Source of the DNA: Phycisphaerales bacterium
Lineage (GTDB): Bacteria; Planctomycetota; Phycisphaerae; Tepidisphaerales; Tepidisphaeraceae
DNA: 64,000 nucleotides
Direction: 5' to 3'
Assembly: GCA_020847545.1 (NCBI GenBank)
Contig: JADLBV010000007.1
Coordinates: forward strand, 62,001 to 126,000
How positions within the stretch are numbered: position 1 is the first letter of the stretch; every line of letters starts with the position of its first letter. Position numbers and translations under genes: made by a program. Below, in pieces: positions 25,888 through 43,994 of this stretch. The notes beneath the pieces were generated by a model. That model searched no databases. It was not told the DNA's origin and worked only from the letters and a program-made list of their open reading frames with translations.

Positions 25888-26937
25888 ATGGCCTCAGCCA
25901 ATAGAATGCCCCGTGTGAATTCAACTAAACAAACCAATCCTTTGGCCGTGGGAGTGATCGGCTGCGGCCGGATGGGCCGGCTGCACGCGCGGGTGTATGG
26001 ACAGATGCCCACCGTCAAGCTGGTGGGTGTATATGACCGCGATGGGGAGGCGGCGGAGACGACGGCCGGGGAATATGGCGGCAAGGCGTTTGAACGGATC
26101 GAAGACCTGCTGGAGAACGTCTCGGCCGTGACCATCGCGGTGCCGACGCAGTTTCATTTGCCGGCCGCACAGGCGGCGCTGGAACGCAAGGTACACTGCC
26201 TGATCGAAAAGCCGCTGGCCAAGGATGAACAGCAGGCCGGACGCATCGCCGATCTGGCGGATCGATCGGGCGTGGTGGTGCAGGTGGGGCATATCGAGCG
26301 GTTTAACCCCGCGATTCGGGCGATGGACCGACTGAAAATCCAGCCGCGGTTCATCGAAGTCACCCGAATCAGCCCCATGACCTTTCGCAGCATTGATGTG
26401 GGTGTGGTGCTGGACATGATGATCCATGACATCGACATCGTGCTACGATTGGCCGGCTCGAGTGTTGAAAAAATCGACGCGGTCGGCGTCAGTGTCATCG
26501 GGGATGTGGAGGACATCTGCAACGCCCGGCTGACATTTGCCAATGGGTGCGTCGCCAATTTGACGGCCTCGCGGCTGGCGTTAAAGACGGAACGGCGGCT
26601 GCGGGTGTTCAGCCCGGATGCGTATGTGTCGCTGGATTACCAGAAAAAATATGGGATCGTCGCCCGGCGCGGGCAGAATCTGGACGCCATTCGACAGGCG
26701 GTGGCCAAAATCCGATCCGGCGAGATCGAGGATTTGTCGGAGCTGAATTACGGCGAGCTGGTACAGGTGGAGGAGTTGCAGATTGACGATGTGGAACCGT
26801 TGCGGGCCGAGCTGGAGTCGTTTGTGTCGGCCATCACACACAACACCCCCCCCGCCTGTTCGGCGCGGGATGGGCTGGAGGCGGTGCGGACGGCCGGCCG
26901 GATTGTAAAATCAATCACCCCGCAATCGCTTGGGTGA
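25888..26937 (+). CDS. Gfo/Idh/MocA-family oxidoreductase
   Basis: NAD(P)-dependent sugar-type dehydrogenase of up to 349 residues. Rossmann motif GVIGCGRMGRLHARVYG, the family EKP motif in LIEKPLAKDEQQA, QVGHIERFNPAI and the C-terminal substrate half with VGVVLDMMIHDIDIVLRL (catalytic-region Asp/His). The GHIERFNPA and DMMIHDIDI wording is that of the homologues that lie in lipid A clusters beside lpx genes, so it may act on a nucleotide sugar; this is inference. The start is uncertain: ATG 25888, ATG 25906 or GTG 25915, none with a clear ribosome site. Confidence 0.88.
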   Translation: MASANRMPRVNSTKQTNPLAVGVIGCGRMGRLHARVYGQMPTVKLVGVYDRDGEAAETTAGEYGGKAFERIEDLLENVSAVTIAVPTQFHLPAAQAALERKVHCLIEKPLAKDEQQAGRIADLADRSGVVVQVGHIERFNPAIRAMDRLKIQPRFIEVTRISPMTFRSIDVGVVLDMMIHDIDIVLRLAGSSVEKIDAVGVSVIGDVEDICNARLTFANGCVANLTASRLALKTERRLRVFSPDAYVSLDYQKKYGIVARRGQNLDAIRQAVAKIRSGEIEDLSELNYGELVQVEELQIDDVEPLRAELESFVSAITHNTPPACSARDGLEAVRTAGRIVKSITPQSLG

Positions 26938-26992
26938 ATCGGCACGGTCTGGTCGATACAATAAAACACAAGGCAAGTTTCAAGGAGCGGAT

Positions 26993-28354
26993 ATGCCCTA
27001 TGGGAAAAGATCAAGTTTGCTGATCACGGCCATCGGCGGCGTTGGATTGCTGGTTGGATGTGGATCATCTGGCGGCAACAAACCGCTGGAATCACAGACC
27101 TTCTACAACACCCAACGTCCCGCGCAGAGTCTTGGCGGGCCGGTGGATCGGCCCGGGCCGGCGCTGTATGACGATGTGAAGGTCGATCTGCTGGAAAAAG
27201 AGAAGGCGGAGGCGGCCCGTCGGGGCGGACAGGGGTCGGGGATCGCGCCGGTTGTTGCTGAAAACGTCAAACCCCCCTCTGAACAATCCACCAGCCACGG
27301 CACGCCGACCACCACACAGGCCGCATCAACCGCGCCGGCCACAACCACCCCAAGCGGTCAATACATGACCATCGGCGGGGTTGTCGCGGAGGTGAACGGG
27401 ACGCCGATCTACGCCGACCGTGTTCTGAATCAGGTTGAAAAAGACCTGGCGGCCAAGGCACGCGATCTGGACGCCAGGCAATTCCGTCAATATGCGTTGC
27501 AGAAGCTGACCGAGGCGCGTGAATACTGCATCAGCAATGAATTGGAATTCGCGGCCGCCCAGCGCAATCTGGATGAAAAAGACCGCCAACTGGCCGACAA
27601 ACTGACCACCGCGTGGCGGCAGCGCAAGATCACCGAGGCGGGCGGCTCATTGGAACTGGCCCGGCGCATGGCCGCCGCCGATGGGCTGAATTTTGAGGAT
27701 CAGGTGCAGGAGCAGTACCGCATCTACATGACGCAGATTTATTACACCAAGCGCGTGCTGCCGCGCATCCAGATCACCGCGCAGGACATGCGCGACTATT
27801 ATCGCACACACAAGGAGAGCGAATTTACGCAGCACGATCAGGTGCGATTCAGGCTGATCAAGATCGACCCGGCGGCCGTCGGCGGACGCGAGGCCGCCAT
27901 CGCCAAGGTCAAGGAGGCACAGGACAAGGCCGCGCGGGGATTTGATTTTGCCGAACTGGCCAAAGGATACAGCACCGATGCCAATCTCGCCCGAAGCGGC
28001 GGCGAAGTCGGGTGGATTCAAAAAGGTTCGTTCAAACTGGAAAAGGTGGAAAAGGCCGCGTTTGAACTGCAGCCCGGCGAGGTGTCGCGTGATTTCATCG
28101 AGGAGGAGGGGGCGTTTTACATCGTCAAGGTGGAGGAACGCAAGGTCGGCCACGTCCAGCCATTTGAAGACCCGGCCGTGCAGGACCGCATCTATTCCAC
28201 CTTGCGATCCCAGCAATTCCGGTCGTTGCGCGAGCAGGTGATCCAACAACTGACCGCCAACGCGATCATCCGCAAAAACAACGATTTGCTGCAAACCGTG
28301 GTCGAAATGGCCATGCAGCGCTACCCCCAATGGGCGGCGGCGGGAAATGCGTAA
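26993..28354 (+). CDS. Parvulin-type peptidyl-prolyl isomerase lipoprotein (SurA/PrsA-like)
   Basis: 453 residues. Lipoprotein signal with lipobox LLVGCGSS, a low-complexity Pro/Thr/Ala linker to about residue 120, a SurA-N-like helical chaperone region (EVNGTPIYADRVLNQVE ... LEFAAAQRNL), and a rotamase domain (about 285-390: FRLIKI, GFDFAELAKGYSTDANLARSGGEVGWIQKGSF, VSRDFIEEEGAFYIVKVEER). It folds outer-membrane or secreted proteins. Start set by AAGGAG five bases before the ATG. It follows the Gfo/Idh gene after 55 bases in the same direction. Confidence 0.9.
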   Translation: MPYGKRSSLLITAIGGVGLLVGCGSSGGNKPLESQTFYNTQRPAQSLGGPVDRPGPALYDDVKVDLLEKEKAEAARRGGQGSGIAPVVAENVKPPSEQSTSHGTPTTTQAASTAPATTTPSGQYMTIGGVVAEVNGTPIYADRVLNQVEKDLAAKARDLDARQFRQYALQKLTEAREYCISNELEFAAAQRNLDEKDRQLADKLTTAWRQRKITEAGGSLELARRMAAADGLNFEDQVQEQYRIYMTQIYYTKRVLPRIQITAQDMRDYYRTHKESEFTQHDQVRFRLIKIDPAAVGGREAAIAKVKEAQDKAARGFDFAELAKGYSTDANLARSGGEVGWIQKGSFKLEKVEKAAFELQPGEVSRDFIEEEGAFYIVKVEERKVGHVQPFEDPAVQDRIYSTLRSQQFRSLREQVIQQLTANAIIRKNNDLLQTVVEMAMQRYPQWAAAGNA

Positions 28355-28407
28355 GGCAACCCGTGCCAAACGAGGTATAATGGCATTGGCCTGATCAGGA
28401 GTCGCCA

Positions 28408-28725
28408 TTGAAATCGAACATTGGTTTGGACATTTCGATGAGTCGGATCGAGGCATTTTGCCATAAGTGGAATGTGCGGGAGTTGTCGTTGTTCGGCTCC
28501 ATCCTGCGGGATGATTTTCGACCTGACAGCGATGTGGATGTGCTGTTCGATTTTGAGCCTCACGCCCGGCGCACATTGCTTGACCTTGTGGCCATGCGGG
28601 AGGAACTGAGCGAGCTTCTGGGCCGCCCGGTGGATTTGATCAGCCGCAAGGGGATCGAACGCAGCCACAATACCACCCGCCGCGACGCCATCCTCTCCTC
28701 CGCGCGGGTGGTTTATACAACGTGA
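28408..28725 (+). CDS. MNT-type nucleotidyltransferase (antitoxin-like)
   Basis: 105-residue minimal nucleotidyltransferase. Active-site motif LSLFGSILRDDFRPDSDVDVLFDF gives G-S followed by D-x-D, with a third acidic residue later (PVDLISRKG). Such proteins (MntA) AMPylate and silence a HEPN (HepT/DUF86) toxin encoded directly downstream. The start is TTG, with AGGAG six bases upstream and a TATAAT -10 at 28376-28381. Directly overlapping its stop is the first codons of a DUF86 gene that is cut off (next entry), so this antitoxin is an orphan. Confidence 0.88.
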   Translation: MKSNIGLDISMSRIEAFCHKWNVRELSLFGSILRDDFRPDSDVDVLFDFEPHARRTLLDLVAMREELSELLGRPVDLISRKGIERSHNTTRRDAILSSARVVYTT

Positions 28726-28780
28726 TCCGCAGTATCTCCGCGATATTCTGGACGCGGCAGTGCGGATCAAAAGTAAGTAG
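28715..28780 (+). pseudogene. HEPN (HepT/DUF86) toxin gene fragment
   Basis: In the frame overlapping the MNT stop the sequence reads RDPQYLRDILDAAVRIK, the standard N-terminus of DUF86/HepT proteins, then stops at TAG 28778-28780. Full HepT proteins have about 110-140 residues with an R-x4-6-H active site; none of that remains. The expected start codon reads ATA, a possible decayed ATG. The loss point coincides with the first base of the palindromic element at 28777. Confidence 0.75.
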
Positions 28781-28845
28781 GGTGGGCCTTGGCCCACCAA
28801 TTCGTTGACCGATCGACATTCGTGGTGGGCCAAGGCCCACCCTAC
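28777..28845. repeat. 69-base palindromic element (MITE/REP-like)
   Basis: Perfect 23-base inverted arms 28777-28799 and 28823-28845 around a 23-base centre. Each arm is itself a palindrome (GGTGGGCC-TT-GGCCCACC), so it can form two small hairpins or one long one. It begins exactly where the HEPN gene loses its frame, so it is either the insertion that broke the gene or a neighbour of the deletion. Confidence 0.85.
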
Positions 28846-28904
28846 CCGTAACGCTTTTCATTGTCCGGCACTGAATAGATTGTGACTCGGGACAGCAGTA
28901 ATCA

Positions 28905-30689
28905 TCAAACCCGAAACACCGCCCCCAGTTTTTTACCCAACAATGCGTTGGCGGCCAGGATGGTCAGTGTCAGCAATGCCATCGCCCAGACGCCCAATGC
29001 GCCGGCGACGTACAGGCCGTCGCCGAGGCGTTGGGAAAGTTCCCAGATCGCCTTGGTGATGGGATAAAATTCGCTTCGCTGGGCGAGGATCAGCGAATCG
29101 CTCACTTCCAGCATGGAAAAGGCGAAGGCAAGCAGCGCGCCGGCCAGCAAATTGGCCAGGATCAGGGGAACGGTGATCCGCCGCATGACCCGCCAGCGCG
29201 ATGCGCCCAGATTGGCCGCCGCCAGTTCCAGGTCGCGGGGTGTCTGCTGCAACCCTGCCACAGCCGCCCGAACGATGTAGGGCAATCGTCTCGCCCCATA
29301 TGCAATAATCAAAAACAACGGTGGGAAATTCTGTACATCCAGCACGGCCGGCACATTGCGGCCCATTTTCTGCTTCAGCCAGATGCTGATCGACAGATAC
29401 CCAAACGCCAGCACCAACCCCGGAACCGCCAACGGAAGCATCGCCAGGGCATCGATCGCGCCGCGCCCGGGCACATCGGTTCGCACCACCAGCACCGCCA
29501 CCAGCAGCCCCACCACCACCGCGCCGCTCGTCGCGATGGTCGCGTAAAAAATGGAATTGCGAATGCTGGGCAGCGCCAGTTCATCCACCAGCGCCTGCGC
29601 GTAATGGCCCAGTGTCCATTGGGCAGGCAGCAATGATTTGTGCCACGCGCCAACCTCCGAAAAACTCGTCAGCACAACCGACAGATGCGGCAGGACAGCG
29701 GCCGCGAAAACAATCACAAACGGCAATGCCGCCAGCAATCCCCGCCGGCCACTCAGGCGTTTTGGCGTCCACGCCACCGAGGCTTTGCTGGTCCCCGAAT
29801 CATAAGACCGACCCAATAGCAGCTTTCCGATGATGTACAGCAGCGCCGAAGCCGCCAGCATCACCACCACCAGCGCATAGGGCATCGGATTGTCCGAAAC
29901 ATCCGTAATCTGTTTGAAAATCTGCACCGGCGTGATGGTGTAAAAATCAAACATCAACGGCGTGCCCAGTTCCGTGAAGCTCCAGATCAGCACCAGAGTG
30001 CAACCGGCGAACAATCCCGGACGCATCAACGGGAGTGTGATTTTCCAAAATCGACGCCATCGACCGGCCCCCAGATTGGCGGCCGCCTGTTCCATCGCCG
30101 GGTCGATGTTCGCCAGCGACGCCTGAAGATTCAGCAGCATGATCGGATAGAGGTGCAGCACCTCCACCACGATGATCCCTACCAGACGCATTCGCCCCAT
30201 CCAGTCGATCCCCAGCGGCGAAATCTCCTGGCCAAACCACGCCCCGACCTGCTGCACGATCCATGTCAGCGGACCAAATCGCCCCAGCACCAGCCGCATT
30301 CCGATCGCCCCCACAAATGGTGGCAATACCAGCGGAACCAGCAGCAATCCCGCCAAAATCGCCCGCCCGCGAAAGTCATATCGCACCGACAACGCCGCCA
30401 GCGGCAACGACAACGCCAACGTCACCGCCGTTACGACGATTGCCACGCCGGCCGCGTTCAATAACCCCCGCACCAGCAATGGATCGCTGAAAATCAGTGC
30501 AATGTAGGAGAGCGTGGGAGAACCGTCGCGCGTGACAAATCCGGTGCGCACAACCTGCGCCATCGGCCAGATCAGCGTACCCCCCAGCAACACCACCAGC
30601 GCGATCGCCAACACAAATTGAGGCATGGTTGCGCCGCGTCGGGCGCGAATGGACAACGGAGAATCAACGACGCGGACCCAACCGGTCAT
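28905..30689 (-). CDS. Ferric iron-type ABC transporter permease (FbpB-like, fused)
   Basis: 594 residues with about 12 membrane helices in two homologous halves, each with a permease EAA loop: EQAAANLGAGRWRRFWKITL in the first and ELAAANLGASRWRVMRRITV in the second. This double-length layout is typical of FbpB/AfuB/SfuB iron(III) permeases, which work with a periplasmic binding protein and an ATPase. Neither is adjacent, although a MalK/UgpC-type ATPase is at the right end of the window (not clearly related). The start overlaps the amidase stop by four bases. Confidence 0.88.
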   Translation of the reverse strand: MTGWVRVVDSPLSIRARRGATMPQFVLAIALVVLLGGTLIWPMAQVVRTGFVTRDGSPTLSYIALIFSDPLLVRGLLNAAGVAIVVTAVTLALSLPLAALSVRYDFRGRAILAGLLLVPLVLPPFVGAIGMRLVLGRFGPLTWIVQQVGAWFGQEISPLGIDWMGRMRLVGIIVVEVLHLYPIMLLNLQASLANIDPAMEQAAANLGAGRWRRFWKITLPLMRPGLFAGCTLVLIWSFTELGTPLMFDFYTITPVQIFKQITDVSDNPMPYALVVVMLAASALLYIIGKLLLGRSYDSGTSKASVAWTPKRLSGRRGLLAALPFVIVFAAAVLPHLSVVLTSFSEVGAWHKSLLPAQWTLGHYAQALVDELALPSIRNSIFYATIATSGAVVVGLLVAVLVVRTDVPGRGAIDALAMLPLAVPGLVLAFGYLSISIWLKQKMGRNVPAVLDVQNFPPLFLIIAYGARRLPYIVRAAVAGLQQTPRDLELAAANLGASRWRVMRRITVPLILANLLAGALLAFAFSMLEVSDSLILAQRSEFYPITKAIWELSQRLGDGLYVAGALGVWAMALLTLTILAANALLGKKLGAVFRV

Positions 30690-43921: not shown

Positions 43922-43994
43922 GGGCAGGTAGCTCAGTTGGTAGAGCAATGGACTGAAAATCCATGTGTCGCCGGTTCGATCCCGGCCCTGCCCA
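43922..43994 (+). tRNA. tRNA-Phe (GAA)
   Basis: 73 bases folding into a full cloverleaf: acceptor GGGCAGG/CCTGCCC, D arm GCTC/GAGC, anticodon stem ATGGA/TCCAT with loop CTGAAAA (anticodon GAA), five-base variable loop, T arm GCCGG/CCGGC with TTCGATC. Discriminator A; the CCA end is not encoded. Confidence 0.97.

Follow-up and report, generated by a model that had tools for sequence, protein, structure and literature searches.

The window analysed here is a stretch of 64,000 nt from a Phycisphaerales genome, in which an MNT antitoxin gene, the beginning of a hepT toxin gene and a repeat element follow one another between two convergent genes. The features of the locus are as follows.

26930..28354, + strand: PPIC-type peptidylprolyl isomerase gene, the upstream neighbour, conserved in the same-genus relative
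28340..28906, no strand: stretch without counterpart at the syntenic site of the same-genus relative (MNT gene, hepT remnant, REPIN and filler)
28376..28381, + strand: TATAAT, which may be the -10 of a promoter belonging to the MNT gene itself, found by reading and without a good -35
28397-28401, + strand: AGGAG, 6 nt upstream of the TTG start of the MNT gene, read in the sequence
28408..28725, + strand: MNT antitoxin gene, 105 aa, TTG start, PF01909 with E 2.7e-17, GSX10DXD motif
28715..28776, + strand: hepT N-terminal remnant of 17-19 codons, which shares 11 nt with the end of the MNT gene, in a frame that matches the hepT starts of relatives
28777..28845, no strand: REPIN, a head-to-head pair of GTAG-tagged REPs, with 23-nt arms flanking a 23-nt spacer
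28777..28799, + strand: left REP arm, GTAG-GGTGGGCCTTGGCCCACC-A, read in the sequence
28823..28845, - strand: right REP arm, the exact reverse complement of the left arm (100% complementary)
28846..28904, no strand: 59 nt filling the space from the REPIN to the permease stop, in which no HepT C-terminus was detected
28905..30689, - strand: ABC transporter permease gene (PF00528), the downstream convergent neighbour, 92% identical in the same-genus relative

The reading of the first gene as an orphan MNT antitoxin, put forward in the earlier note, is upheld by an intact reading frame, by the match to PF01909 and by the motif GS-ILRDDFRPDS-DVD, an exact and intact instance of GSX10DXD, which is required to adenylylate HepT (PMC7641770). 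Against the MntA antitoxin model NF047752 (MntA_antitoxin), the protein scores 42.8 bits, under the cut-off of 60; it is an MNT of the MntA kind, but below the level of the MntA equivalog. A consensus promoter scan found no promoter for the gene. Searched against named species genomes, the MNT of the window returned only distant relatives, with a best identity of 51%. An intact MNT-HepT pair is present elsewhere in the same genome (locus L103, G000:C147:1000-4000); its MNT shares 47-49% identity with that of the window, and its intact HepT may be a target of the orphan antitoxin.

Across the MNT stop, a second frame reads IQRDPQYLRDILDAAVRIK-SK-stop (28715-28780, stop included), and its TAG sits within the GTAG with which the element opens. 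HepT-like codons run up to 28768-28771; AGTAA comes next and then the element; the statement that the toxin frame ends exactly where the element begins is accurate to ~8 nt, not to the base. The remnant aligns to the N-termini of intact HepTs of relatives whose genes overlap MNT genes, with a score of 46 against MSRDDVYLLDILDAA/MSRDDAYLFDILDAA, and in these relatives the MNT genes overlap the intact hepT starts in the same manner (for example ...GATTTATGTCCAGGGATGACGTTTACCTG... -> MSRDDVYLLDILDAARLALRYV). Pfam identifies two of the intact overlapping partners as HepT (PF01934, E 7e-27 and 3e-26). The Pfam search of the remnant gave zero matches, because PF01934 covers these HepTs only from residue ~11 onwards. 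When a HepT model derived from the relatives was run on the whole window, the remnant came top of all segments, yet with an E-value of only ~1.5, the profile search being weak on so short a piece; the resemblance to a DUF86 profile was thus recovered weakly with the relatives-based model and not with Pfam. A positional test was therefore used instead, in which a position matrix built from the N-termini of the relatives was scanned over both strands of the window. The remnant ranked first of 127,898 in-frame window positions (score of 28.0, with the runner-up at 17.9; z 6.9), and 0 of 200,000 local-base shuffles scored as high. That this is a chance frame beside an MNT gene that was solitary from the outset, as the solitary MNT genes of some relatives and the silence of Pfam would allow, is scarcely credible: position, frame, overlap and sequence all agree with the HepT starts of relatives, and the outcome of the positional test largely refutes it. 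Alignment and positional test together bear out the DUF86/HepT N-terminus that the earlier note had recognised here.

The first 17-19 residues are all that remains of HepT, and the full PF01934 HEPN domain and the RX4HXY motif are both missing. An intact hepT measures ~340 nt, of which ~60 are kept here and ~270 are gone, and the model built from the relatives detected no HepT C-terminal sequence beyond the REPIN in the window. The codon at the HepT start position of the relatives is ATA in the window, with no other start codon upstream in the remnant frame, and this is a second lesion besides the truncation. The MntA-HepT architecture, an MNT gene followed by an overlapping hepT start, is met here as a relic. 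It is akin to MntA-HepT (HEPN-MNT, type VII) in that a PF01909 MNT with GSX10DXD precedes the toxin gene and overlaps its start (motifs as in PMC7641770), and differs from it in that the toxin is cut to 17-19 codons, has neither start nor RX4HXY and does not form a functional pair.

The element was initially taken for a 69-base perfect palindrome, whereas it actually comprises two perfect 23-nt inverted arms and a 23-nt spacer that is non-complementary. Each arm consists of a GTAG tag and its own hairpin, and both arms begin with GTAG, so that the tag marks the outer end of each palindrome. Folded as DNA, the whole reaches -33.3 kcal/mol (z -11.3), so that a single long hairpin is possible. 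The outer GTAG, the inverted REP pair and the short conserved spacer are those of REPINs, or GTAG REP dimers, and the multiple copies, solo REPs and RAYTs beside REPs in one genome recall REPIN/RAYT (TnpA_REP) systems (PMC3116915, PMC3733652, PMC8266576). The stem of the window element, CCTTGG, makes it a separate class here. A search for other copies of 28777-28845 found four full 69-nt copies in the genome, the other three being 94-96% identical to that of the window. Several CCTTGG REPs also occur solo, and there are two sister REP classes, GGGGTTCATCCCC and GGGCAYYGCCC. The genome also encodes two RAYTs (REP-associated tyrosine transposases; NF047646, E 3e-57 and 8e-51).

L189, 1717-2455: RAYT gene 1, with REPs of its own class on either side
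L190, 1191-1910: RAYT gene 2, likewise with own-class REPs on either side

The classes flanking the two genes are CAYYG and GTTCATC, as pairs or part-degraded pairs; no RAYT flanked by CCTTGG-class REPs was found in the draft assembly of 162 contigs. At the other three REPIN sites, the element is missing from the same-genus genome and the flanks are conserved; alignment of these sites with their empty counterparts gave no base-exact insertion points, because the intergenic DNA has diverged. Since all four sites are empty in that genome, the REPIN family is lineage-specific and dispersed, and the suggestion that the element moves is well supported. It could be objected that the palindrome is an intrinsic terminator or a structural RNA rather than a mobile repeat, given its very stable fold and its place between convergent genes, where it could additionally terminate transcription. 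This is highly improbable: a terminator scan gave no site with a stem and T run, and near-identical copies, spacer included, lie at three unrelated loci that are all empty in the same-genus relative.

The target duplication that the earlier note proposed to look for was sought and is absent around the window copy. Among the other copies, none was seen at L004 and only a displaced 7-nt match at L002. The element accordingly lacks the flanking target-site duplication that marks DDE-type insertion sequences and MITEs. Around the third copy (L003, ~1430-1600), an 11-nt direct repeat, TGGATCAACTG, occurs at the 3' end of the gene next to it, with one copy ~57 nt before the element and the other 4 nt after it; this may be a duplicated gene end.

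The comparison of the site covered one same-genus genome and the permease loci of 28 further relatives. In the same-genus genome, the same two convergent neighbours are separated by a 16-nt gap, and the MNT gene, the remnant and the REPIN are missing together; an MNT gene adjoins the permease at 0 of the 28 further loci. The earlier note had proposed to look in close relatives for an intact hepT without the element; the same-genus genome instead lacks the whole stretch, and among the relatives compared, none had the same module with an intact hepT at this site. Decay in place is therefore what we infer, and the module may have been truncated before its arrival. The choice between gain and loss of the module rests on its absence from relatives, of which the same-genus genome alone has the convergent gene order. 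The sole tRNA gene of the window, tRNA-Phe (GAA), lies at 43922-43994 on the + strand.

Toxin loss beside a kept antitoxin recurs among related MNT loci. HepT is full at 49 of the 69 relatives' loci with enough DNA, partial or frameshifted at 11 and absent at 9, so that hepT is broken or missing at 20 (~29%); these numbers are descriptive, since similarity to the query decided which loci were included, most of the survey genomes are drafts, and sequencing errors may lie behind some of the frameshifts. Conversely, among 40 HepT loci picked for having no MNT listed alongside, 38 are adjoined by a full MNT and two by a partial one (20/69 vs 2/40, Fisher p 0.0025). The two with a damaged MNT are L270 and L293; the MNT of L270 looks frameshifted, which may be a sequencing error. 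On a tree of MNT proteins, the broken label takes 17 changes, at least 8 of which are forced by supported branches, and the broken loci are scattered over the tree. The GS..R..SDxD motif is kept at 18 of the 20 broken loci and at 44 of the 49 full ones. A GTAGGGTGG REP, the only REP stem sought, occurs within 600 nt downstream of none of the 20 broken loci. At two orphan MNT loci, parts of hepT can still be recognised: at L052 (G096:C210), the middle is lost and a C-terminal piece kept (profile positions 92-112), and at L056 (G069:C142), the N-terminus MRRDDARLLDIV appears by eye to be joined to the last residues LVPEEDNT. The locus of the window resembles orphan antitoxins after toxin loss, with an intact antitoxin frame and a broken toxin, as is recurrent in relatives, and differs from the other 20 broken loci in that its junction carries a REPIN.

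Each part of the locus is of a known kind, an orphan antitoxin, a real toxin remnant and a REPIN brought together at one junction. We consider it likely that a module in the convergent gap had its toxin gene inactivated and mostly deleted, and that a REPIN landed in the 3'-end DNA and now constitutes the deletion junction. We propose that a self-contained MntA-HepT (type VII) module came between two convergent housekeeping genes in the lineage of the window, and that it would have been gained here rather than lost in the same-genus relative. The toxin gene would then have been inactivated, its start position no longer being a start codon, and largely deleted, leaving the 17-19 codons beside the antitoxin frame. 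Copying of the REPIN, a non-autonomous hairpin element, was presumably the work of a RAYT from this genome, which would then be the one that moves the CCTTGG class. Toxin loss is ordinarily safe, while the antitoxin cannot go first, and a toxin lost with its antitoxin kept fits this rule. The decay of a MntA-HepT module, as claimed in the earlier note, is supported by the remnant beside the kept antitoxin frame; that the element caused it, at base resolution, is not borne out, given the ~270 missing nt, the second lesion at the start, the want of a target duplication and the absence of the entire module from the one close relative. As only ~60 of ~340 nt of hepT are left, insertion alone is insufficient and a deletion must have occurred. 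From one sequence, the arrival of the REPIN cannot be placed before, during or after this deletion, and the order of the two events proposed here is accordingly conditional.

The REPIN may also have come first, downstream of an intact module, with a later deletion running from hepT codon ~18 to its edge, and we hold this as a tentative possibility. REPs typically sit just 3' of genes and between convergent genes (PMC3733652), and such an order would account for the tight junction and the lost 3' part of hepT together; deletions within hepT are also found at other loci of relatives (L052, and L056 by eye). However, no intermediate was found, and a single sequence does not separate this order from a causal insertion. 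The latter, a RAYT-driven insertion into hepT that killed the toxin gene with loss of the DNA beyond, we regard as unlikely. The HepT-like frame does end within ~8 nt of the element, whose family is lineage-specific and dispersed, and palindromes provoke deletions at their own ends. However, insertion leaves the ~270 nt unaccounted for, with no hepT sequence beyond the element, and the start-codon position is altered too. Moreover, related bacteria often lose hepT next to a retained MNT in the absence of the GTAGGGTGG REP hairpin, 20 of the 69 loci having broken or lost hepT with no such REP nearby. Because REPs favour 3' ends and convergent gaps (PMC3733652), a chance landing in dead 3' DNA is to be expected. 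It is quite improbable that REPIN movement strips flanking DNA on insertion, thereby deleted the toxin gene and left a solitary adenylyltransferase kept for a cellular role, such as restraining the intact paralogous HepT on contig C147.

With toxin loss in the convergent gap and a REPIN landing in its 3'-end DNA as the likely course, the locus would offer a readable case of toxin loss with the antitoxin kept, in a very widespread toxin-antitoxin module. Over a quarter of the related MNT genes examined (~29%) adjoin a broken or missing hepT and nearly all HepTs examined keep an MNT; these counts support the rule that the toxin is lost first, and bring the fate of orphan MNT enzymes within reach of tests. 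The REPIN contributes, for a group of mostly uncultured bacteria, a set of REP classes together with RAYTs. In another genome of the same family (G002), matches to GTRGGGTGG...CCACC number ~158 per strand vs 21 in the genome of the window, which is a REP expansion.
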